A stretch of 64,000 nt of DNA, from NCBI GenBank assembly GCA_950295325.1, contig OX485808.1, forward strand, positions 39,142,527-39,206,526, written 5' to 3'. This document shows, one piece after another, positions 36,469 through 60,966 of the stretch. The notes under the pieces are model-generated. The model had not been told where the DNA came from. It worked only from the letters and a program-made list of their open reading frames with translations, and searched no databases. The stretch is from Polytrichum commune. Taxonomy: Eukaryota > Streptophyta > Polytrichopsida > Polytrichales > Polytrichaceae. Within the stretch, counting starts at the first letter, position 1; the number at the start of each line of letters is the position of its first letter. The translations under genes and the position numbers were made by a program.

Positions 36469-36540
36469 ATGGCCTTATCAACTAAAATGAGACAATTGGT
36501 CCGCTCAATTTAATGTAGGGAACGTGATGGGAACGCAATG
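36469..36540. repeat. Left terminal inverted repeat of the 21.9-kb element
   Basis: ATGGCCTTATCAACTAAAA, then GAGACAA, and further in GGGAACGTGATGGGAACGCA. Pairs with 58317-58394. Confidence 0.85.
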
Positions 36541-36980: not shown

Positions 36981-37763
36981 CTAGACGCCTCCTGTCGGTA
37001 CCCCATCCTCAAATTGAACTCCATTGCTCATATGCTCGCATCTTGTGCATCGATCTAAATTATCCTTAGCGAAGAGAATTTGCCTCGCTGGGATGATCAC
37101 ATTGTCATCGGACGCATTCTTTTGTCTTGCCCATGATGCCACAACACAATCCAGAGATTGACGAGCTGGAGCATAATCCTTGAGCCTCGTCCACCTAAAA
37201 CATTTTGCGGTGTCCCATTCCTCATAACGATCATCCAATGTCTTCTTGCTCCTCTGCCCAAGGACCGGTACATAATATACAATCTCAATTGAACGAGGAT
37301 GAGGACCAACATGTGCTAAATTTGGCTCGGAAATCACTCGTCCCATCCAAACAGGATTAGGACAATCATCACTAGGACGTAGTAAGACATAGTGACCGAC
37401 CCTAATGTGTGCACCCGGACGAAAGGTCTCGGCGGGTCGAGAACTAGCTGGCCCCACATATGCATAGTCGGTCATGTTCTCCTCAAGTAGATGCACATTG
37501 TCCTCATGTAGGGCTGCTGCAATCGAGAACCGTGAAGAAGGCCAAAAGGGCTCGCTAAGCTCAGATGGAGTTGGCGGTAAAGGAAGATCCATAGCCGCAA
37601 GCACATTCTCCCAATATGAAATTGTTGGCGCAATGGACTCCATATATTTACCCAAACTATCTTGATTTGTTGTATCCTTCCAATACTTAATAAAACCTTG
37701 AAGTCCAAGTTTTATGTTGACAGAATCCTTCCTCTCCCTTTTTGGGACGGGTCGGGGACAACC
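36981..37763 (-). CDS. Transposase-like gene, C-terminal exon
   Basis: This exon follows an acceptor (TTCTTGTAG) and joins in phase 1 to the exon ending at 37904, so the frames match. It encodes about 260 residues. A basic start (RPVPKRERKD) and helical segment are followed by GHYVLLRPSDD...PVWMGRVISEP, which resembles a small beta-barrel of the BAH/SH3 kind seen at the end of related element proteins, and then EEWDTAKCFRW. It ends at a stop next to 36981. The beta-barrel assignment is a weak inference from the pattern alone. The intron of about 140 bp holds one GC palindrome. Confidence 0.65.
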   Translation of the reverse strand, partial: GCPRPVPKRERKDSVNIKLGLQGFIKYWKDTTNQDSLGKYMESIAPTISYWENVLAAMDLPLPPTPSELSEPFWPSSRFSIAAALHEDNVHLLEENMTDYAYVGPASSRPAETFRPGAHIRVGHYVLLRPSDDCPNPVWMGRVISEPNLAHVGPHPRSIEIVYYVPVLGQRSKKTLDDRYEEWDTAKCFRWTRLKDYAPARQSLDCVVASWARQKNASDDNVIIPARQILFAKDNLDRCTRCEHMSNGVQFEDGVPTGGV

Positions 37764-37903
37764 TACAAGAACAAACATACATTGAGGTCAGAGCTATACC
37801 TTGGATTAACGGTCCACGGGCGATCGCCCGTGGGCCACGGACAACACACCTTGTAGTAGGTAGTGCACTTCCATAGCAATACCAACCTCACAACCACTAA
37901 CCT

Positions 37904-39930
37904 GGTGGGAACATGGTTTTCTTCGTGATTGGATCCACATTCCAGAGCGCAATCCCACCTTCTGGTGACCAACTTGGATCTGTACAAAAAACTTTGTATT
38001 GCATCAATGGCAATCCTTGAGGGTCGACATAAAAACGGAATTGGTGTGCCTTGGAATGCCCTATAAGTCGGTCTTGACCAAACTCACTGTAGTAGCCTTT
38101 CACCCATCCCTTGAAGTCAACAACCTCATGTATCAAGGACGGGACAATAGTGGGATCCCCAGCAGCCATGAATGACGCCATGAGGTCTGGGAGGGTATGG
38201 CAATCCTCAATCTTCAGCCTTTGTCCAAACCTACCGAACATTGCATCCACATCCTCATGCGTATGTCCAACAATTAGGAAAGACACCCGGACTTCACGAA
38301 AGATTCCCTTTGCCGTCAGAGCAGACCAAAACAACATGTTGTATTTTGATTTGTTATCCTTCGCACAATTGTCCATCTGGACAAGCAAGAGGGGTGGCAA
38401 ACTCGTAGGCGGAATAATATCGGTTGGTGGTAAAGGAAGTGTTGCTGAACACTTCTCTACACCGACCACCAGTGCGTCGTGCAAAGGGTCACCTATGGAA
38501 GATATAGGAATGTCTCGACTGGAGCACACGGGTTCGACCTCAAGTTGACAAAGCAACTTCATGATGGATGTGATGGTGAAGTTCACATCAGATGGGTACA
38601 TGTCAAGAACATAATGCGCGTAATTCACATCAGAGTGTCCACGTGCAATCATCCCGGCAATGGATATTGGGAACCGCTCGTATTTATCAACACGTTTGTT
38701 TTTGTGCGCGAAAACAGGAAGCGTTGTTTTTCCATAATCCATTTTGTCATGGATGATACAGAGGACCTCATTCGGAGAGTACTTTGATAAGATCCTATCT
38801 TTATAGTAATTGTTTCTATGGGACTCCTGCAATGATAGATGCTTGTTGCTAGCCTTCGAGATGGCCAAGTACCCAGAAGTGCCTTTTGTATGTATTCGTA
38901 ACAAATCCTTGAAAGCTGCACAGGTTCCACAACGCGAGAAGTTGTCACCAGGGCTCTTTATAACATACTGCTTGAAATGTTGCCGATGAAGGCGGCTTAA
39001 ATTTGACATAGAGACAGGCGCGTAACCGAGGTCTTTGTCCAAGTCGTTCACTTCCTCCAATAGGTTGGTCCACGTTGTTCCTACAGGGAGCATCTCCGTT
39101 CCAATTTTTTCACCAGTTGGAAGAGTCCGAGTCATATGGGGCATTGAGTCCGCTCTACCTTCAACCAAAACTCCAAGTGTAGCTTGTGCCTGCACTGTGT
39201 TCGCCCTTGGCTTTTTAGTTCCTGTATTCCCATGATCGCGGGCCCTAACCCCCATCAAGCTCTCGGTCTTGTTCCTATTAAATTGTGCCCTTGATATCAT
39301 GTAGATGTTCATCCAAGCACGAGTGCAAACTGTTCTTCCTTCCACAACAACCGTCTCCCTACCACTGTGCTCTTGTCTCTGGATCGTTTGAAACACTGCA
39401 AGGGCAATGAGCTTCCGGGCATTGAATGGCAATGTAAAGTAGTGTTCCCGAATACTTATCAACAAAGGCCTTGGAAATAACTGGCAACAATGCTCCTTGC
39501 AGCAATCCACCATAGACAACATCCGTGCCCCCTCCTCAGTGGCTCCCCAAATTCTTTTCCCAGGTGCCCGAGGTGCAGTAATCCTTGCAGTGTTGTATCG
39601 GCGCTTTCCAAGCAAACGCCGACGACTCGTATCTTCGTGGGTTGCATTATGATGGGCCATCAATATTTCCGCTAATGTATGTCCTTCAAATTTCGTGAGG
39701 GCTAGGGGCCATCGGTGTAGAGTATTCTCTCAATCCCCGGAAATGACATTTCCAGTGGGGTTCAAGATAATAACTCCAACATCTTCATCGCCCAGTATAT
39801 TGTTGTCAACACAATCCAGCGGGTTGGTATTGCAAATTAGCCCATCACACAAAGGGCGATCCTCTTCATCAAAGAGAGTAACTGCCTTACCCTTCAAGTC
39901 CTTCCTCGACAATCCAATGTAATGCGGAAT
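37904..39930 (-). CDS. DDE transposase-like protein (DUF7869-type), main exon, one premature stop
   Basis: One continuous frame runs from an acceptor (GATGTTTAG) at 39931 to the donor (CCAG|GTTAGT) at 37904, broken only by a TGA at about 39728. An ATG after the stop (39660) would give 587 residues. Motifs, counted from there: CGTC zinc-like pair (~245), HDKMDYGK (~305), VQMDNCAKDNK (~430), and IVGHTHEDVDAMFGRF (~467). These acidic motifs in order fit an RNase H-fold DDE transposase, and HTHxDxD is characteristic of the DUF7869 group found in many eukaryotic elements (family name from memory). It probably acts on the element's termini in the nucleus. The TGA may derive from CGA by C-to-T change. 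Upstream exons were not resolved. Confidence 0.75.
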
Positions 39931-43692: not shown

Positions 43693-45925
43693 CAACAAGA
43701 AAAACTCAAGAACCTCAACATACCCAAAAAATAATGAAATCCTTATACCAACTTGCCATAAAATACCTCACCTATTCAATCATATACAAAATAAAACTAA
43801 AAGTAGTCCATTGACAAACCACCATAGAACCCTGTTAAAATACCTCAATACCACCCACACACCCTCAACTACGCCCCCACCCCTCTCTTCAAACTTCCAC
43901 ATAGAAGCCCACCTTTCAAAAAAAAAAAAAACGGGTAGATACCTCACCTTACATCATGGACACCCATTATCTACGTTAGGAGAATGGGCTCATATTTACG
44001 CTAAGGTAACAGGAGGCCACTTAAGTTAGCTTCCTATTGGACACTTATATTTGGCTTGGAATTGGCAATATTGTTGCTTTAATTGAAAGGGTGAGTAATA
44101 CATGTTGATTTAGCCACCTTTGCAAAAAACAAACTACACCTATCATCCTTCATAATTAGGAGTGTTATCCACCAACCTATGACACATTTGATTTTGTAAG
44201 TGAAGTGGGCAAATTAAGAGGTTGCATATGGTTGTGAGGTGCCAACCACTTGCATAGTGGGTATTTTATAATGATAACCTAATTTGGCAACATTTCATCT
44301 TATTCATGACCAATTTAAAAACATGACACAACAAATGTTGGCATTAAACTTCGTTTTCATTGACAAATGACCCATGTAGAATTTGCTAGTGTCGCCATCC
44401 ACTTACACAACATTGAACAATGTAAGAGTTGCTTGCTTTAAAACCAAATTGGAAAGTAGAGAATCTTTGATTCCAGAGCCTAGACGAACACCTTCCTCAA
44501 CTCCAATTTCAACAACTTTAGATTGCTTGGTCATGATTCGCAATTGTTATCCTGCTCAAGCTTCTAATGCTCGAATCCATCACCTAGATAATTTTAAGTA
44601 GGCTAGAGGTTTCCACAATAGCCTCATCAACCTTAGTGCATGAACACCAATGTTTCAACATTTTTAATATATATTCTACATTCCATACTTGCTCACAATT
44701 ATCTTCCTCTTGCATGCTACATTGTAATACATGACACTTGGGTGTGTAGTTAGGATTTTAAATAAGACATAAAGCCAATGAAATATTCAAGGAAGACTTC
44801 AAAGGTGATTCCGATATCATCTTGGTGTCACAAATTAATTTCACTAAGACATTCACATGATTAATTAAGGTTGTTTTGGTTTTGAATCGGTGTTTGGATG
44901 ATGATTCATAGGATAAAGTCTTACAAACTCTTACAACAATACATGCAATCGTGGTTGTCTCTCAATTCACACTATTTGCCCACCCAAGAGCTTGGCAGTG
45001 AATTGATTTCATTTAACAAACCCCTAGCAAAAGAAACTAAACATCTTTGAAAGCTGCATTACAATTGACTGATGGAGAGAGCATCCCTTGTAGGTTGGTC
45101 ACCCAAACTCAACTACCCCCAAAGAACGCCCAATTTATTGTAAAGGATAGTGTTTTCTTGTCATCATGTTTCTCATTATTGTCTATTAAGGTTTCGAACC
45201 CTCGATCTTCATCTCACAAAAAGCCACACGCCCCCCCCCCCCCCCCAAGAACACTAAGTTGAAGTCACACCCAACCCAACTCCTCATTAACACACTTAAT
45301 AACCTCTCACCAAGACCTCTCCCCAAATGTCCCATCTAATCAATCCCTACCTAAGATACAAAACCATTCATAAAGCCACGGTCACAAAGTTCCCCACCAA
45401 AAGGCAGTAAACACCTACATGTGAAGAGACTCTCTATTTACATTTGCTCACTTGCATAAGAAGTTGGTGATGCTATTTATCTATTTGCATGTCAATCTTT
45501 CACAATGATTACTTGGTCAACCTTTAATTATTGAAAAGCCAAAGCGCTTACAAAGTCTCTACATATGTCTTAAGTACTAAACCTACCTAATGTCCATATT
45601 TGAGCACATATAAGTCCAATCTTTTCTACACACTCTCTTTCTACCTATGGGGGGGGGGGGTGGGTTTTTCTTAGCTTCACACCTATTCACACAAATAAGT
45701 GAAGGCCCTAAACGTCCAAACAACCTTTTCAACATGAGTGATTATGAACTCATAAGTAATACATTTGAATTGCCCAATGGAATAACAGTACATCGTGCGA
45801 TGCCAAATATTAATGTAAAATAATGTTAATTCTAATAGGGTTTAGGGTTAAATGTAATAGGGTCATATATTTGCGTGGTGTTTTTATGGTTATTATTTTA
45901 AAAATTAGAATTCATGTATTTGCCA

Positions 45926-45951
45926 AACCCTAAACCCTAAACCCTAAAACC
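45926..45951. repeat. Interstitial telomere-like repeat
   Basis: About three to four CCCTAAA units. A further pair (GGTTTAGGGTTTAGGG) lies near 49518. Confidence 0.85.
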
Positions 45952-46620
45952 AAACAATCACATTATGGAACCGGCTGGACTTGGAAACATTGGGATGTTG
46001 ACCGATTATGCCCAAAAATCAGACCAGCCACTCCCACCATCATGGAAGGTTCGCACGCACTTTCTAAATTCACTGTCGGTCCAACAAATCATTGGCTCGG
46101 ATTCCACTAATGTTATGGGTCCACAATGCCATGGGTGCATCTTAAAAACATAATCAACCTTGAGTGTTGCTAACCACAATTTCAGTATTGAGTACATGTT
46201 TAATACATGGAAATGGGTCATGTGTTAGTTATTGGCCCAGGGGTGATGAAATAACATCTTTCCCCATCTTCAATTGTTTTTATGAACAACAATGGGTATT
46301 ATAAGATAATACTAGTTGTGACCATGAGACCCCATTTTATTGATGTTGTCAAGAAACACTTGGAAATATTGTGTAATAACACATCTTGGGTAGTAAAAAT
46401 TCACGCCCTACTTTTGGGGTCCATTACTAGAAGCAAAATGAATTAGTATATTAGGTGATTGACATACAAGTGTGTGCAAGAAACGTTACCACTACTATGA
46501 TAATGATTTACGTTACTATTTGTTTGAAGTTATTTTTCAATAGAAAATCAATGCAAGCCACATTCATTGTATTGCTCAAATCTTAATGTGGTTAATTATT
46601 TGTATTTTGTGCTTCAGAAT

Positions 46621-49345: not shown

Positions 49346-49398
49346 GCAATTCTATTGACATTGCAGAGCAATTGCAATGACCCCACCAAGGAAACCTG
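49346..49398 (+). CDS. Candidate first coding exon of the H3-mimic gene
   Basis: It lies between an acceptor (CTTGTGTCCAG) and a strong donor (CCTG|GTGAGT). An ATG at 49377 encodes MTPPRKP and ends in phase 1. It could splice either to 50684 (giving MTPPRKPA followed by MARTKQTARK) or directly to 50815 (giving MTPPRKPVSGG); both keep frame. Whether it is used decides whether the H3-like tail is N-terminal or internal. Confidence 0.4.
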
Positions 49399-49478: not shown

Positions 49479-50472
49479 TCCACGGGCGAACGCCCGTGGG
49501 CTCTATGTGAGTCAATGGTTTAGGGTTTAGGGTTGTTGCCCCACGGGCGTTCGCCCGTGGGACTTGTTTGTTTTCACTTAGAAAATCAAGCTCCACGGGC
49601 AAACGCCCGTGGGCTCTAGAACGAGAAGTGGGGCTGCCTCACGGGCGATCGCCCGTGGGCCCTGTATGGAGGAAACTAATTAGGTAGTAGAAATTAAAAA
49701 TGAGAATAAATGTTTGAGTAGGAATGAGACAACTATATAGATGTATGAATTGAAAACTAGAAGGGGGGAAGGCCCACGGGCGAACGCCCGTGGGCCTTGT
49801 ATGAAGGAAACTAGGTAGAGTATAAGTATGAATTAAAAATGGGAATGAATGAGAGAAATAATAGAGGTATAGAATTAAAGATAGATGTGAAAAGGCCCAC
49901 GGGCGTTCGCCCGTGGGCCTTGTATGAAGAAAATTAGATAGAATGTATGAATAAAAAATGAAACTCTCATATGAGAATCATTATACGAGTATGAATAAAA
50001 GATAAGAATGTTTGAGAGAAGTAAGTGGGTATGTTTGAGAGAAATATTTGTTTGAGAAAATATGAGTATGTGTTTGAGAAATATATTTTTGAGAAATATG
50101 TGTTTGAGAGAGATAAATGTTTGAGAGAAATATGAGTATGAAGAAAATTAGACAGATAGTATGAATTAAAGAATGAGAGTGAATTAGAATACTAGATAGA
50201 TGAATGAATTAGAAAAGGAAAGGGGGAAGGCCCACGGGCGAACGCCCTTCCCCCTTCTTTTTTTTGAGACATAACCAGGTTTCTTCATATAGCTCCCACG
50301 GGCGAACGCCCGTGGGCCTTGTATGAAGGAACCTATCTAGGAACTAAGAATTCAAAGGGGGTTGGCAAGGTCACTGCCCACGGGCGAACGCCCGTGGGCC
50401 TTGCAACCAGAGACTTGGTTTGCAGAGACAAATGACAAGGACTTCCCACGGGCGATCGCCCGTGGGCCTTGT
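49479..50472. repeat. Intron palindrome array (nine complete copies)
   Basis: Copies near 49479, 49541, 49592, 49638, 49771, 49894, 50294, 50377 and 50444, with a half-degraded one near 50229. Most have the centre GAAC, others GTTC or GATC. The spacers are AT-rich and partly repetitive (CCTTGTATGAAG; GTTTGAGAGAAATATG), so unit-by-unit duplication has occurred. Confidence 0.9.
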
Positions 50473-50685
50473 AACACAATGTAGAGGCATCTTATAATGT
50501 AGAGGCATTCTATTTGGCCATTCTATATTGGCTATATAACAAGAAAATATGTGGTTAACAGTAGCAAATGAAATCATCCTTTCTCTTTTGGAAATGTGCA
50601 GTATAGTGCAGAACTTAAAATAGACAGTGCTTGTTTCATTCAGGTACATAGACGTTTTGAACTGAAATCCTTCTGTTCATGAGCG

Positions 50686-52025
50686 ATGGCAAGAACGAAG
50701 CAGACTGCTCGAAAAGGTAGGACAACGGCACCTAAGACAGACTCGACATGTTTCTAGATAGTCGAAAACATCGACTTGCCTAGGGTATTAACATGTGCAT
50801 TTGTTTGTACACAGTGTCCGGTGGAATGTCCAGGTCAGTGACCTGGGACATAGTCGATTTGGGAGAGAATGTCAAGTGGTTCATGCAATATAGTGGCTTT
50901 GGGGAGACAACGGTGTTGTCATTGTACACCAAAACAGAGATTGATACTACATGGAGGAGATTTATGAAAGCAAAGCACGTGTTGGACCTTCAAGCCGATG
51001 GAAAAAGGGTTATGATAATGTGCAAGTCTTCAGAGCGAAAGAAGGATTTCAAGGTTGCTGGCTATGTGGACTCGTTCGCATATGAAGATGTCAATGAAGA
51101 GCTAAATCATGAGGGAGAGAATATGAGGTCTACGAATGGCGACTTCCTAACTTATTGTATCATCTACGGCGAGACAAACAAGCACACAAAGACCCAAGAG
51201 GAGAGAGCATTCATGATCGAGCAGGACTACAAAGCTGCTCTCCGCAGGGTGCAGGTTATTGTGGAGGAGGCAAAGGCATCAAGGCTGGAGGCATTATCGA
51301 AGAAGAAGCAAATCCGTGAAGGCAAGAGAAAGGCAGGAGATGAGGTTCGAGAGGCGGCAGCGAGGAAGAAAGCAAGACAAGATGACGTCCTGGACTTGAC
51401 TGTACAGGACAATCCCGAAGAAGATGAGAATCAAAGGAAGGGAAAGAAGAAGCCAAGTGATCCTAGTCCTTTCCTAGAGGTGGAGAAGATTCCAAAGAAG
51501 TCGAAGAGTGGGCCACCGGATAAATCTGTTGGAGATAGGTTGATGGACTTGGAGGTTTTTATGAAGAAATACAGTAGAGTGTTTATCTTTGGCGAGGGTG
51601 TCTCTGGATATGTAAATATCGCAAATGTTGAGCGGGGAGATGCGGGATACAATTGTCGACCCATATCAGAGGCGCATTTGAGAGAGATGAAGACGTGGCT
51701 CTTCAATTTTGCGTTCATGCAGAAGAACCATCCGAACTTTCTGACCATCGTTCCAGTAGATAGAAGTTCGAAGCCAAGAAGTTTTGAGGAGGTCGAAGAC
51801 AAGAGATTCCATGTGGTTAATGGACAGCACACGTTGGCTGCCTGCCTGAAGTTCGTTAATGACCCAGAGAGCACTCCGGAGGTGAAGAATTTTTTTTCTC
51901 GATGGCCATGCAATGTGGTATGGGCTCCTGAAGGTGATGATGACCCTTTGTTCCATCTTTCTGGTGTTCTAAACTTAGATAGTGAATATAGAAAGCACTA
52001 TCCAACATGGGTGGAGTGCATTTAG
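50686..52025 (+). CDS. H3-tail-mimic / ParB-like element protein, N-terminal part
   Basis: Exon 50686-50716 encodes MARTKQTARK and ends in phase 1 at a donor (AAAAG|GTAGG). After a 98-bp intron the acceptor (TTTGTACACAG) opens exon 50815, continuing in frame as VSGGMSRSVTWDIVDL. The first ten codons equal the histone H3 start (M plus residues 1-9, with Lys4 and Lys9), and SGG follows as an echo of H3 STGG. Farther on come a Lys/Glu-rich helical region with a bipartite NLS (KRKAGDEV...ARKKAR, ~180-198) and a ParB-like segment (NCRPISEAHLREMK, ~290; FHVVNGQHTLAACLKF, ~342-357). The frame is closed by a single TAG at 52023 and then stays open. Function is inferred: a nuclear, possibly DNA-binding and chromatin-engaging accessory protein. 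Confidence 0.7.
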
Positions 52026-53381
52026 CATGCAAGGAAGACGTGGATTCGAAGAGGAAAGCCGCCTCAAACAATCCAAGAGAGTGCAACCAACAGTGAAGCG
52101 TTCAGGAAATGGAAGGAATTCACCACGTGCCTCATGTGGACCTTCCGTGTGGAGAAGAAATCCAATTTGATAATGGAACACATCTTCCAAACGTTGGGTG
52201 ACGAACTCTGGAGAAAGTGGGAGCGAATTTTCATGGATTTTGAGAGAGGCGAGTATATAGACAAGAAAACCCTGGCGCTGGCGAAGGAGAAGAAGGGTTT
52301 TAAACCCAAAAGTGTTGTGAAGAACGATATGAAGCACACTCGCGGCTTGACAGAGGTGGAGCTTGACATGGCAGCGGATCAATGTCTGGTCACTAAAGAA
52401 GGTGAAGAGTATCCCCGCCATACCTTGAAGACAATTGGTGAGTGGGCATACAATAAGAAGAAGAAGAACGAAACATATATTGCGATGGCGGAATGTTTAG
52501 ACCCCCCCCCACGTTATGTTATTCAAGTTGATCAGAAAAACACTATTGACCGCGACGAATGGCATGCGTGGAAGGAGACGAACAATTTTGGACGGCTGCA
52601 GAGGGAAATACTACTGGACCTGCTGGGAGCGGATTACCTAGCTGCCACTTTGAATCCCGCCAAGAAGAAAATACCGATTTCTGCACGATTTAAGGAGGGA
52701 GTGAACAATATACTTAGCACTTGGGTTAGGGAAGTGTCGGAGGAGCACACAGTGTTGTCTATAGACAACAAGTTTCGGGTTAGTGCTGAGGGACAAACGT
52801 TTGCTCCAATAACCCATGCTTTCATGGACACGAGGTTTCTTCCAGGAGTTAGGTACGGAGTGGACAGTGGCTTCCGCGTGAAGGAGATTGTTGAAGGCAC
52901 TCTGCAAGGTCTTCGTCGGGACCTCCCTGGAATACTGCAAGCCCCACAATTGTGGACTGTTGTGTCGGAGTATCCTGATCGACACTTTATACACAATGTG
53001 TTGAAGGCGTATCTCCCGTACAATGTGAGGTTTTGTGAAGCCTTGTACAGAGGATGCAGTGAGGAGAAACTTACTTCGCAGGGCTGCTTTTACCGGAATA
53101 GTTCTTTGAGGGTAACGACTTGCATTTTCTCCAAAAAAGGGGAGTCAACCGAAGAGGTAGCAGTACGGATTTGCGGCGGGAGGAAGATGTTGGACATGCA
53201 TGACCCCCGAGACTACAAGCGATATTCAGTGAAGAGGGCTTATGCCAGTGAGGCGTCAAGATCCATTTTCAAGGGGGAGCTCAGGATGCAGACGTACATT
53301 GACATCATCAAGCCTTCATGTCTGGAAGGGACAATTTTCCTGAATGTTTGCGGAAGAAACAAAGCTCATATCGTCGCACAT
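52026..53381 (+). CDS. Same gene, middle part after the in-frame TAG
   Basis: It remains in the frame of the preceding part and is open for about 450 codons to a donor (GCACAT|GTAAG) at 53381. I see no known domain. The text is typical coding sequence with Trp- and Lys-rich helices (KWERIFMDFERGEY; GFKPKSVVKNDMKHTRGL) and a Cys-containing stretch (LYRGCSEEKLTSQGCFYR). With the stop reverted, exon 50815-53381 would be one long exon. If the stop is real, only re-initiation or readthrough would yield this part. Confidence 0.6.
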
Positions 53382-53495
53382 GTAAGAATTCACATTTTGT
53401 ATCCTTATTATGTACTCATATTCGTTTTTCCAACAATGACCATGAATTACGTATATGTCCGCCATTTCTAAATTTATTTTATCTTATTTTTGCAG

Positions 53496-55434
53496 GCGCT
53501 GGGTATGAAGGTCGTGAACATTGTTCCTGTGGATGTCGTTGGCACGGCAAAGGCAAGAATGTTGGCGGCCGTTGACTGGAGCCTACAAAGGTGGTATGAA
53601 GAAGGGAAGGACTCGGGAGACAACAACGAGGATGAGGATATTGATCGCGAGAGGAGAAGCAAACGTGCCAACGATATCGAAGAGGAGGAGGACGAAGAGA
53701 CGGACGATGAAGAGGAGGAGGATGAAGAGGAGATTGATGAGGTGGTGCTTGATGACGAGGAGGATGAGGTTAATGAGGAGGAGGTTGACGAGGATCCTCG
53801 TGAAGAGGAGCACGAGGAAGGCCATGATGAGGGAGATGATTATGATGATGAGGGTGCTCCCCCTGAAGCTCCATTGCAAGAGCTGGGAGATGATGAGGAT
53901 GAGGGGGATGCAGGTCCATCCCACGGGCGATCGCCCGTGGGGTCTGTTGAGGGAGAGGGAGGTCCCTCCCACGGGCGATCGCCCGTGGGGCCTGTTGAGG
54001 GAGAGGGAGGTCCCTCCCACGGGCGATCGCCCGTGGGGCCTGTTGAGGGAGAGGGAGGTCCCTCCCACGGGCGATCGCCCGTGGGGCCTGTTGAGGGAGA
54101 GGGAGGTCCCTCCCACGGGCGATCGCCCGTGGGGCCTGTTGAGGGAGAGGGAGGTCCCTCAGAGAGGAGCCTTCAGCCCCCTGGGTCATCATATACATCT
54201 GGTATCCCGCCAACTCCGGAGCGCGGATTTCAGCCGTTTGAGGCTTCCCGACAAAGTCGGGAGCATGAGGAAATCGGAGAAGAGCAAACGCCAAGTGATA
54301 CTCGGGAACAGGAGATACATGCTCCAAGGTTTACATCGAAGCCGGTTGCTCGAAAGAAGGTTAAGGCTATCCGACGAAAATCTCTGCGAGCTCCTAGGGG
54401 TGGAGAAGCATCTCGCTCTTCGGAGGATATAAGACAATCTAGCCGCAATGACGAGGGCGAGACTGGCGTTGTTCATGAAGGTGAGGTTGACAATGTTGAT
54501 GATGTAATCGATACTATCATCGATACTATCATGGATACCCAATTGGTGAGTGGGGAGAGATCAGATTTGAACATGTCCTCACCTGTGGAGGAGGTTGCTG
54601 CGGCCGTTCTAGAGGTCCTAGGACAAGCGCGTCCAAATGTGGAGCCCTCTGCAGCCGCGGTTGAGGAGGAACCTGCAGCTGCTTCGGCTTTAGGAGAAAA
54701 AGAGACGGTCATCCGGACAGAGGTCATTTGCCTGGACATCGATGATGATATGCCCCAGAGACGTGTTGATATGGATGTGCGGGTTAAGGTGAAAGACCCT
54801 GTTCCATATCGTGTTCGGGGAACGTTTGCCGATTATATGACAGACGACTCGGAGGACGAGGACTACGGCAAGCCTGGGTACAGCAGGGTGAAACTAAGCT
54901 TCGCTGATGATCCTCACCCCCTTTTTGCGGCAAGACCTCCACCGAACGCATCCGACAAGGACAAGGGCAAGGGCAAGGAGTCAGATGAGAAGGACAAGGT
55001 CCATTTTGCGCCTTTCGTGGACAAGTATTTGTCGGAGGTTCCGGAGAATGTGCGCTTGAACCTGAGCAACATGTACAAGTCCTATGACTATCACAAGATG
55101 TTTGCGTATCTCTCCACGCCAGCGTTTTGTGCAGCTGTGAAGGTCAAGCATATCCTCCATGCTGCTTCGTTGAAGAAAATGCGAAAGAGGTGGACATTCT
55201 TCGATGCCCCACCAGAACGTCCAGGACGAGGTCAAGGTCAGGGAGTCGCTGCTGGGCAAGCTCAGAGTGTTGTTGACTCTACGCTGGAGGTTATTGACAT
55301 TAGCGGAGCACAGGAATCTCCCGTCCGTGAAGTCCATGTTGGAGCTGCTGGGTCCTCAAGCCCTCGTGGTCATCGTGCGAGTTCCCCTGTCCGTCCCGAC
55401 GCTGCCTCAAGTTCACCGGGCCCTCGAGCTGAAG
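53496..55434 (+). CDS. Same gene, acidic / palindrome-repeat exon
   Basis: After a 114-bp intron (acceptor TATTTTTGCAG), 646 codons run to a phase-1 donor (GAAG|GTATGC). Order: a short leader; a very acidic tract from about residue 45 (EEEEDEETDDEEEEDEEE) of the kind found in histone chaperones and nuclear proteins; five 16-residue repeats PSHGRSPVGPVEGEGG translated from the GC palindrome; a basic region (KPVARKKVKAIRRKSLR); and near the end a folded-looking block (FVDKYLSEVPENVRLNLSNM). No catalytic motif is visible here. The tract and basic patches suggest chromatin contact, but that is inference. Confidence 0.65.
53920..54133 (+). repeat. Five palindromes in 48-bp coding tandem repeats
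   Basis: Perfect palindromes at 53920-53941, 53968-53989, 54016-54037, 54064-54085 and 54112-54133, all with the centre GATC. They are separated by GTTGAGGGAGAGGGAGG-type spacers, so the unit is 48 bp and keeps the reading frame. Confidence 0.95.
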
Positions 55435-55548
55435 GTATGCTATAATATTTACCTTCATAGAGGTTGGCTTACATTTCATTCAAGTAAAGGTCTACACTAT
55501 GATTTCTGCCTAGGTACTCATGAACTTTGTTTGTGGATTTTGTCTCAG

Positions 55549-56509
55549 GTCGCTCATTGGAGGATCAAGTGCCAGTGACGGTACGGGATTCTGCTAGATT
55601 TCGCCTAACTAATTGATTGCGTAGCTACTTTGCCCTCTTATGTATGCTATACTTATATCTAACCATAATATTGTTTCGTTAGATGAGAATCCATTAAAAT
55701 GATTTTCGATTTTGTCATCGCCAGATCCCCACATCTCCAAGTACAGTTGTTCACCGGAGAGAGAAGATATGGTTAGTGTTGGATGTGAACGGGATTCTGG
55801 TGAGGAACGCAAAGTGCGACAATGTCAACACCAGGAAGGCACTTGATGCACAACATAGCCCGTTAATAAGTGGGGAAGTGGCTCCACTATTTCTCCCTTA
55901 TAGTGCCGTCATTCCCAGGAAGGGATTGGGACGGTTCTTGCGCTTTGTGCTTTCAAACTTCCATGTTGTCATCTGGTCCTCCAAGCTTCTGAAGAATCTC
56001 AAGCCAATTGTCCAATACTTCTTCAAAGGTTGTAGGCAACCTGAGTATGTATTCGGCCAGGAGATGTGTCAAGTTTTGGCCGATGAGCGTGGAAAGAGTT
56101 TACCCAGTCCCGTGAATGCTGAGTCGAGCTTCTTCATCAAGGACCTCTGCGCATTTTTTGAGTGGAGTCGGATGCATCCCCTGCCGCATTCGAAGCCACC
56201 CACTCATAGAACCACATTGCTTGTTGATGACTCCCCTTACAAGTGCATAGCAAACCCTTCAGGGAGTTACATTAATCCCCCCCCCCTTTTCTGTCAAACC
56301 AGAGTTTGGATACTCTCCATAATTACTTGCAGAACCTTTTGACTTCACAAGTTTATGTTCCAGATTTTGTAGGGAGCAACCCTTATCCATCAGGCCAAGG
56401 ACCCTTCAATCTAGAGTTACCAAATTCGCAGATATATAAGAATGCGTTGGCTAGACATAGAGAAGTGACTACGGATCGTAGAATTCCAGCGGCGCAGATG
56501 CCAATGTAG
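55549..56509 (+). CDS. Same gene, C-terminal FCP1/SCP-like HAD phosphatase domain
   Basis: Exon 55549-55580 (phase 1 to phase 0) joins exon 55725. HAD motifs are in order: motif I LVLDVNGIL, with the second Asp of the usual DxDx(T/V) replaced by Asn as in a known group of plant FCP1-like proteins; motif II VVIWSSKLLKNL; motif III LLVDDSPYKC. FCP1/SCP enzymes dephosphorylate the RNA polymerase II C-terminal domain; the Asn may lower or abolish activity. At 56277-56286 a run of ten C shifts the frame, after which another frame continues sensibly (LDTLHNYLQNLL...YVPDFVGSNPY) to a stop at 56509. An eight- or eleven-C run would keep frame, so this is a homopolymer indel or an assembly error. Confidence 0.75.
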
Positions 56510-58316: not shown

Positions 58317-58394
58317 ACGTTCCCAATGCACGTTCCCAAAGGTACGGATTGTCTCATATTGGACATTTTGGCTCATTTTAGTTGATAAGGTCAT
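58317..58394. repeat. Right terminal inverted repeat of the 21.9-kb element
   Basis: CTCATTTTAGTTGATAAGG then TCAT at the edge, with inverted GGGAACGTG motifs at about 58317-58338, mirroring 36469-36540. Confidence 0.85.
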
Positions 58395-60966
58395 AAAAAT
58401 CAAAATTTCAAAAGTCAGGTTGAAAATCAGACGAACAAGAAGATTGGGATGATTAGGAATGATCGTGGAGGTGAATACACCTTTAAGGCTTTCAAAGAAT
58501 TTTGTAACAGTGTTGGAATTCATTGCCAGCTTACCACTGCACATACACCCCAACAAAATGAGGTTTCGAAAAGAAAAAATAAGACTATTCTAGAACGCAC
58601 GAGAAACATGATGATAGCTGGAGGGGTTAAGGATTTCTTATGGGCTGAGGTTGCAAAAATGGCAGTTTATCTCATGAACAGATCCCCCACGAGATCAAAC
58701 TTCAGGCTTGCACCTGATGAAGTTTTCCACGGGGTAAAACCTAATCTCCAGCATCTCAAAATCTTTGGGTGTCAAGTCTATGTCCATGTTCCGGAATCAC
58801 AATGAAACAAAATTCAACCGAGAGCGATTGAAGGACGTTTTGTAGGCTATGATGATTCATCAAAAACTCTTAGGGTATGTATGCCGACTTCAAATAAAAT
58901 TATTGTCACCAGAGATGTAGTATTCAATGAATTACCTAGACATAATCAAAGTGAAAACTGTATTTCACCACAGGATATCTCAACCATTCAGACTCCACCT
59001 TTATCCACTTTAGGTGTACCAACATTGTCCAACCAGGGCTCATCAAATCAAATCATTCTATCCACTCAAATTTGTCAACCAAGTTCTCCAAGTATATATG
59101 TTTCTTATTACATGTTCAATTCCCAGTAAATTATTCTTGATCATCCCAATTTCTTAGTTATTCACCAACTTCCATTCTTTCATCTCCCTCTGATCCATAC
59201 TACTTCTCTGACCATTCAGTGAAAACTTCCCTGGTATTTAACATCACCAATCTAGATAAGGCTCATGATCATGGCCAACTGATCATGATGTAAACGATAT
59301 CTCTACATCCCAATCCTCCGATCTCTGATGGGACCTTCCTAAAGAAAATGATCCAAATCAATCCGGCTCTCAAGTTGAGCACAAATCTCCGTCAAAATGC
59401 AAAATCAAGCTTCGGATATGGTGGCAAGATCATTTTGTGGATGTCATGTCACTTCCTCAGGAGCCTAAGACATTCAGCGAAGTGGTCATTAATACCAAGT
59501 GGGTAGAAGCCATGCAAAAGATAGCTTCCATACATAAGAATCATACATGGGATTTGGTCGAGCTTCCCTTCGGCAAATCCGTTGTATCAGACAAGTGGAT
59601 CTATACAATCAAGTGCAAAGCAAATGGCACCCCACAGTGATACAAAGCAAGACTTGTTGCAAGAGGCAACGAACAACAACATGGAATTGACTATGAGGAA
59701 ATTTTTGATCCCGATGTTAAGTGGGGTACAATTTGAACCTTGGTGGCTTTAGCTGCTTTCCACGGATGGAAATTATTCCACATAGATGTTAAAATGGCGT
59801 TCTTAAACAAAGACTTGGAGAAAGAGGTGCACATTTCCCAACCTCAAGGTTTTAGGCATCCAGGTCAACAACATCTTGTTTGTCGCTTGCGTATGGCTTT
59901 GTATGGTCTTAAGCAAACGCCTCGTGCATGGTTTGCTAATATAGACACATATCTCAAAAGCCAGGGCTTCACCAAAGCAGCTGCAGACTCAAATATTTAC
60001 GTTATCACTCATGAAGACAAAATCCTAGTTCTTCTCGTCTATGTTGACGACCTTTTGTTCAATGGGAATTGCTTGCAGTGGATAGACTGGTTCAAAGCTC
60101 AGCTAGAGGATATGTTTAAGATGTCTGAGCTTGGGGAGGGAAATCTCACCTTATATCTCAAAGCGGAATTTCTACAGACTCTGCATGGAATATTCTTGAC
60201 TCAAAGGGATTATAATCAACAAACACTCGAAACTTTCAATCTTCAAGACTCTCAGCCAACATCAACTCCGATGATAGAACGACTCAAGTTGAAAACGGAT
60301 ATGAACGAGGAGTCTATTGATCCTACTCTCTACAGGTCTATGGTGGGCATGCTAATACATGTCACACACAATCGACATGATTTGTCTTATTCAGTAGGTA
60401 TAGTAAGCAGATACATGGCGAAACCCCAAAACTCTCACTTGCAAGCTGTGAAACGTATCTTTAGATATGTTAGCAGCACTTGGGACTACGGTATCATGTT
60501 CAGAAAGGGAGACCAAAGCATGTTGATTGAATATGTCAATTCAGACTATGCTAGAGATGCAAAAAACGGTAGATCAATGACAAGTTTTTTATTTCAATAG
60601 GGCAATAGTCTGATCACATGGTACTTGAAAAAACAGCCAACGGTTGCTCTTTCCAGTAGTGAGGTTGAATACAAAGCCCTGTCTAATTCAGCAAGGGAAA
60701 CGGTATGGCTTATGTCACTGCTCAAGGATCTTGGTTTTAAGAAGCTTAATCATGTGACAATATTTTGTGATAATGAAGGTAGTATCAAATTGGCATACAA
60801 TCCGGTTTTCCATTCTAGGATGAAGCATATTACCACTTATTATCACTTTGTTAGAGAGAAGGTGGAGAGTGGGGAAATTCAAGTACAACATCTGCCAACA
60901 ACTAAGCAAACTGCCGATTTGCTGACTAAGGCACTCAGGAAGCAATTATTTGAGAAATTTAGATAA
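58395..60966 (+). pseudogene. Ty1/copia integrase C-part, reverse transcriptase and RNase H (3' piece)
   Basis: It resumes at NFKSQVENQT, then RNDRGGEY (second catalytic Asp of integrase) and HTPQQNEVSKRKNKTILE (the catalytic Glu region). Reverse transcriptase has WKLFHIDVKMAFLNKDL (first Asp) and LLVYVDDLL (YVDD box). RNase H has ALSSSEVEYKAL, IFCDNEGSIKLA and HITTYYHFVREKV near its end. Order INT-RT-RH identifies Ty1/copia. In-frame stops at about 58803, 59638, 59734 and 60598 show that it is dead. Confidence 0.93.

Follow-up and report, generated by a model that had tools for sequence, protein, structure and literature searches.

We describe a transposon in the genome of Polytrichum commune that can encode a protein beginning like histone H3. 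The element lies in a 64,000-nucleotide stretch (GCA_950295325.1, contig OX485808.1, forward-strand positions 39,142,527 to 39,206,526), which we call the window and whose numbering is used throughout. At the level of sequence, it is close to certain that the element encodes a conserved N-terminal H3 tail, exact in most copies. The translation of 50686–50716 is MARTKQTARK, an ATG followed by H3 residues 1–9, and a GT donor at 50717 opens a 98-bp intron (50717–50814) with an AG end, giving the joined peptide MARTKQTARK-VSGGMSRSV. An earlier note on this DNA had proposed both the exon, with its phase-1 donor, and an acceptor 98 bp downstream that restores the frame into VSGG; translation bears out the coordinates and the phase, and the computed join the acceptor. 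Its suggestion that VSGG echoes the STGG of H3 is weakly borne out: both glycines are retained, but Val replaces Ser10, and the position of Thr11 is variable (S, P, L or F). The features of the tail gene are as follows.

49346–49398, plus strand: exon 1a, an alternative first coding exon (ATG at 49377, MTPPRKP, phase-1 donor)
49480–50466, no strand assigned: array of eight palindromes in the intron, each CCCACGGGCGNNCGCCCGTGGG or a slight variant of it
50644–50716, plus strand: exon 1b, with a short leader, ATG at 50686, MARTKQTARK and a phase-1 donor
50717–50814, plus strand: 98-bp intron, GT...AG, at the equal place in other subfamilies
50815–52025, plus strand: exon 2 frame, starting VSGG, ended by a premature stop in the window copy
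51594–51986, plus strand: predicted ParB/sulfiredoxin-like domain, residues ~260–390 of the exon 2 protein (P0001), containing HVVNGQHT
52026–53384, plus strand: the same frame continued, homologous to the open frame of a subfamily B copy
53487–55445, plus strand: a further, acidic frame, in which the tandem repeat at 53852–54208 codes the palindrome
Tail peptide of the element, as distinct from its T7 form and from H3 1–13: ARTKQTARKVSGG

The presumed acceptor of exon 1b, TTCATTCAG (TTTATTCAG in subfamily C), is kept across subfamilies. In the window copy the frame after the exon 2 acceptor closes at a TAG (52023–52025). Copies with the frame open across this stretch exist in subfamilies B, C, D and E (one copy each), which makes the window copy a damaged, shortened member.

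Conservation and origin of the tail

With the base composition of the window, ATG plus the nine residues is expected 3.5e-9 times per 64 kb and 2.2e-5 times per 408-Mb genome. The genome holds 54 exact sites of MARTKQTARK in all its codings, as against 0 for a reversed-pattern control. We therefore reject a chance origin, in agreement with the earlier note, which had called a nine-residue identity at an ATG very unlikely by chance. Seventeen sites are at host H3 genes, all with CGN at Arg2, and 37 are in the element, all with AGA. Among the host sites, 14 coincide with full-length PF00125 matches (8 of these 14 were translated, and all are H3) and 3 lie in intron-containing genes. We read 36 of the 37 element sites; the remaining one (C6:3982413) is beside a match of the exon 2 protein. 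A Pfam scan found no PF00125 histone fold in P0001, in the other members of its alignment (A3) or in the later window frames. At the level of genome sequence, a predicted protein that is not a histone thus carries an N-terminal H3 tail.

Copies of the element were sought by a DNA search with the exon region, which gave 40 places, and by a protein search with the 402-residue frame, which gave 106 matches, distant ones included. We examined 59 copies: 30 from the DNA search, the window's own among them, together with 20 and 9 from further lists. The exon is alignable in 55, reading MARTKQTARK in 36, MARTKQTTRK in 15, MAKTKQTTRK in 2, and MARTKQTSRK and MARTKQIARK in one each, and the GT donor is present in all 55. 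Ala1, Thr3, Lys4, Gln5, Arg8 and Lys9 are each retained in 55/55 copies, Thr6 in 54/55, Arg2 in 53/55 (Lys in the other two) and Ala7 in 37/55 (17 Thr, 1 Ser), and synonymous change is seen at 7 of the 9 codons after the ATG.

The exact peptide occurs in copies of five subfamilies, A–E, whose exact types differ at five positions, all of them third positions. Exact types of A and B are separated by 5 synonymous and 0 nonsynonymous differences, which has a probability of 0.001 under neutrality, the A–E comparison set consisting of types picked for being exact. The commonest type is exact in A, B, C and D; E (n = 2) has one exact and one Thr7 copy, and F (n = 1) and G (n = 2) have Thr7. Relative to the exact types, F has one amino-acid change and 2 to 6 silent ones, and G has two and 0 to 4. 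Because the tail differences are mostly silent while the remainder of exon 2 is only 69–72% identical between A and B–E, selection, as judged from these copies, is on the peptide and not on the DNA.

Several observations limit this picture. The exon is unmatched in four of the 59 copies (L015, a remnant with a deletion, L057, L058 and L092). Ala7 is a weak site, for which 13 changes are needed on the 55-row tree, and well-supported branches force five of these. The genome also holds a distant family whose exon 2 is homologous throughout at 19–21% identity (seven loci read, five aligned); in the stretches read at the seven loci, the forward frames contain nothing that comes within three substitutions of ARTKQTARK. 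The earlier note had made its claim depend on conservation in related elements, and the outcome is divided: the N-terminal motif is conserved at the protein level over subfamilies with changing codons and the exon is kept in 55/59 copies, but the other 4/59 and the seven distant-family loci are without it.

The Ala7 state is no more clustered on the tree than shuffled labels are. Since Thr7 lies on longer tips than Ala7 (17 Thr7 and 37 Ala7 tips, the single Ser7 excluded; p 1e-5, with tips that are not independent), recurrent decay of old copies is the simplest reading of Thr7, which could also reflect tolerance of Thr. As a discriminator between Lys9 and Lys4 readers Ala7 proved indecisive, both because A7T may be decay and because chromodomain contacts at H3 residues 5–8 are, according to one paper, largely main-chain (PMC3192050).

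The tail also stands at the start of its protein. The earlier note had cautioned that use of the upstream exon at 49346–49398 would make the motif internal, for which we found no support: joined to exon 1b at 50644, exon 1a runs into an immediate stop after the nine residues MTPPRKPGT, and joined to exon 2 at 50815 it reads MTPPRKP-VSGG in frame and bypasses the tail. In 54/55 copies the three codons that precede the tail ATG include an in-frame stop, and therefore the tail begins the protein wherever exon 1b is used. Exon 1a is itself conserved. Its peptide is MTPPRKP in A and MVPPKNP in B, as found by alignment, and MAPPKNP in C, MSRPKKT in D, MVPPKKP in E and MSRPKKV in one G copy, as found by a scan that required a phase-1 G|GTRAG end; the same scan found no exon 1a in F or in the second G copy. 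The common phase of these exons is partly built in, because the scan required it. We infer that the anatomy fits two alternative starts, with and without the H3 tail. The conserved short basic exon (MxxPKKx; 49377–49398 in the window) could either provide an alternative start for the protein or be an upstream open reading frame.

No tail exon was found in the stretches read of the distant family and the ATG of its frame aligns next to VSGG, so the tail was apparently gained as an extra exon within a single clade. It may have arisen by an old capture or de novo. Recent capture of a host H3 exon is unlikely, given the different Arg2 codons of host (CGN) and element (AGA) and the lack of a host intron at Lys9: in the three host H3 genes with introns that were read, the H3 frame is left after ATK (two genes) or after ALR (one gene), and none is split at Lys9.

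The mobile element, its palindromes and a predicted ParB-like fold

The tail gene shares its element with the following features.

36469–58394, no strand assigned: whole transposon copy of subfamily A, 21,926 bp, edges set by copy comparison
36469–36491, plus strand: left terminal inverted repeat, ATGGCCTTATCAACTAAAATGAG
58372–58394, minus strand: right terminal inverted repeat, reverse complement ATGACCTTATCAACTAAAATGAG
37897–39729, minus strand: probable transposase frame with a DUF7869 domain (Pfam PF25273, E 2.1e-44)
36981–37787, minus strand: second open frame, perhaps a later exon of the DUF7869 gene, the joining being conjectural
55698–56342, plus strand: NIF/SCP-like phosphatase-domain frame of the same or the next gene (Pfam PF03031, E 3.7e-8)

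The left edge is the edge of matches in other copies, and the right edge comes from comparing two B copies with the window. Four of the five copies checked at both ends (the window, one other A and two B) have terminal inverted repeats and 4-bp target duplications: AGTA in the other A copy, ATCC and CACA in the B copies, and AAAA on both sides of the window copy, which is less telling than the others. The right end of the fifth, an A copy, was not found within the stretch read; in a further four copies (one A, three D) the reading covered the left end alone. By its inverted repeats and target duplications, the element that holds the motif is mobile, as the earlier note had supposed, and two B copies are 99.3–99.6% identical.

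Beyond the eight intronic palindromes, others are scattered over the element (53852–54208, 37811, 40181, 56717 and 57515), and at 53852–54208 a 48-nt tandem repeat codes the palindrome in frame. One motif accounts for 18 of the 20 palindromes within the element and for none of the 3 outside it in the window. One palindrome variant has 158 exact genome sites, the reversed control 0, and of the 100 palindrome sites listed, 75 are no farther than 25 kb from a family copy, although the sequence at such distances makes up 0.93% of chromosomes C1–C4. The variants track subfamily (A, D and G versus B, C and E); the palindromes of the distant family form a set of their own. The element thus bears family-specific motif arrays in its own non-coding parts. 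For a further DUF7869 family (42–52% identical; G000:C3:30778793 and C3:30785290), the same palindrome is no more than 11 kb away.

The exon 2 protein is predicted to have a ParB/sulfiredoxin (Srx)-type fold. The first 12 VIA-align rows for its predicted structure are all ParB, Noc, PadC and KorB chains, in keeping with the fold of the ParB N-terminal region. With Foldseek alone, nothing reached E ≤0.001, the best ParB-family row being KorB (rank 6, E 0.14), and neither Pfam nor NCBIfam gave a significant domain in P0001 or in ten exon 2 members. A PDB sequence search returned nothing for P0001 and, for alignment A3, six weak rows with unrelated names. No relative was confirmed in viral contigs with P0001 (1 pattern match) or with A3 (27 pattern matches).

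The DUF7869 frame is the likely transposase. It scores 151.9 bits against a cut-off of 26 (PF25273), and its full-length matches in other subfamilies are 86–89% identical. Its fold prediction has a mean pLDDT (predicted local distance difference test score) of 29, and the word DUF7869 does not occur in the open-licence literature searched. The second minus-strand frame has no Pfam match, and the family palindrome at 37811 falls in the gap between the two. The NIF/SCP-like frame, perhaps in the same transcript as the tail gene, lies in a region with 81.6% nucleotide identity to a B copy over 846 columns. The usual phosphatase motif of such domains is DxDx(T/V); the frame reads DVNGI at this position, and the domain may therefore be inactive.

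Two other observations concern the surroundings. A 2.9-kb piece at 43699–46615 belongs to a set of recurring pieces, 98–99% identical, which among the places listed mostly have a copy of the distant ParB-like family ~5–6 kb away, suggesting a nested insertion or an exchange between families. Outside the element, a little past its right end, is a frame at 59737–60600 that we take to be a Copia-type reverse transcriptase.

Possible roles of the tail

The tail is very likely a functional histone mimic. The reading we prefer, tentatively and as somewhat short of probable, is that the exon puts a selected H3 mimic on an accessory protein that acts as a self-targeting anti-silencing factor. If the gene is expressed and spliced as drawn above, removal of the first Met would leave a free A-R-T-K-Q-T-A-R-K end like that of H3, and the protein would attach to the palindrome arrays of its own element by way of the ParB-like region or an adjacent part. 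The tail would engage host readers and modifiers of H3 Lys4 and Lys9, and silencing would be diverted or active-chromatin factors recruited; a protein with or without the tail would result according to which first exon, 1a or 1b, is used. We regard as doubtful a bolder form, in which a ParB-like coat on parS-like palindromes would show many H3 tails, Lys4 and Lys9 enzymes would act on the coat and not on nucleosomes, and a switch between the two first exons (both phase 1) would turn the display on and off.

Among the alternatives, the H3 tail might dock the protein and the transposition complex on host H3 readers and so steer insertion, a possibility also raised in the earlier note. A tail conserved in a mobile element with recent copies, such as the two nearly identical B copies, would suit such tethering, but it sits on a gene of the opposite strand and not on the probable transposase, and we consider this explanation unlikely. 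Less likely still is a corepressor bait, in which the tail would lie in the substrate cleft of an LSD1-type demethylase, brought to the element to tune its own expression. Residues 1–6 are all kept in 52/55 copies, and SNAG domains are N-terminal H3 mimics that occupy LSD1 (PMC5896174); against this, self-repression would be of little benefit to the element.

The tail might instead be a simple basic leader, for example a nuclear localisation signal, with its H3 likeness incidental and exons 1a (MxxPKKx) and 1b interchangeable. Exon 1a is indeed short, basic and of equal phase (the phase required by the scan, or seen by alignment in A and B), and Arg2 is Lys in 2/55 copies. Such a leader would not demand an exact H3 1–9, for which the chance expectation is the 2.2e-5 per genome given above; Lys4, Arg8 and Lys9 are fixed in 55/55 copies despite codon change at Lys4 and Arg8, and we judge the explanation very improbable. 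Transposons do capture host exons, but a functionless H3 fragment, or pure coincidence, hardly deserves belief when divergence between subfamilies is mostly synonymous, Arg2 is CGN at 17/17 host sites and AGA in 37/37 exact element copies, and an intron at Lys9 is absent from each of the three host H3 genes read that do contain introns.

Relation to known systems

Viral histone mimics, such as influenza NS1, are parasite proteins that copy H3 sequence, and they are short and mostly internal or C-terminal. The element's tail differs in being an N-terminal exon in a transposon. SNAG domains resemble H3 loosely and begin with a PRSFLV-type sequence, which the tail, ARTKQTARK, does not share. The SNAG domain is nonetheless the nearest precedent for the tail that we can name: in GFI1 and SNAI1 it is an H3-tail mimic at the very N-terminus of a non-histone nuclear protein and fills the LSD1 cleft (PMC5896174). 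SNAG proteins are host transcription factors, and the element's residues 1–9 are identical to H3.

Bacterial ParB–parS shares with the element a ParB/Srx-type fold, here predicted, and palindromic sites clustered on its own DNA. It differs in that the element is a eukaryotic transposon, its protein has no sequence-level family match, and NGQHT stands in place of the ParB nucleotide motif.

The nearest tested precedent is VANC of the Arabidopsis VANDAL transposons. It recognises arrays of family-specific motifs, which its own element carries in introns and upstream of the transposase, binds them and causes loss of DNA methylation there (PMC5735166). Both are accessory proteins of DNA transposons, with motif arrays of this kind, tandem repeats in the accessory gene and a transposase more conserved than the accessory protein (here 86–89% versus 69–72%) (PMC5735166). 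The layout is alike and the domains are not: Pfam scans found neither of the VANC domains DUF1985 and DUF287 (PMC5735166) in the ten exon 2 members or the window frames. The moss element has instead a 22-nt palindrome motif, a predicted ParB-like fold and an encoded H3 tail.

Histone mimicry has been described in viruses and in host regulators. Among the matches listed in the open-licence literature searched, we found no H3 tail encoded by a transposon, and hence no exact, selected H3 N-terminus on a transposon protein; by a word search, histone, mimic, moss and bryophyte are absent from a review of gene capture by plant transposons (PMC13317346). Because its relatives have largely kept the amino acids while the DNA letters changed, our analysis points to imitation of host chromatin by the element, perhaps as a way to avoid being silenced. 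If the proposed mechanism is true, the reading of H3 Lys4 and Lys9 is itself the target of a transposon, nature has an H3-tail decoy that short palindromes direct to its place, and an arms race over transposon silencing would become testable in a plant.
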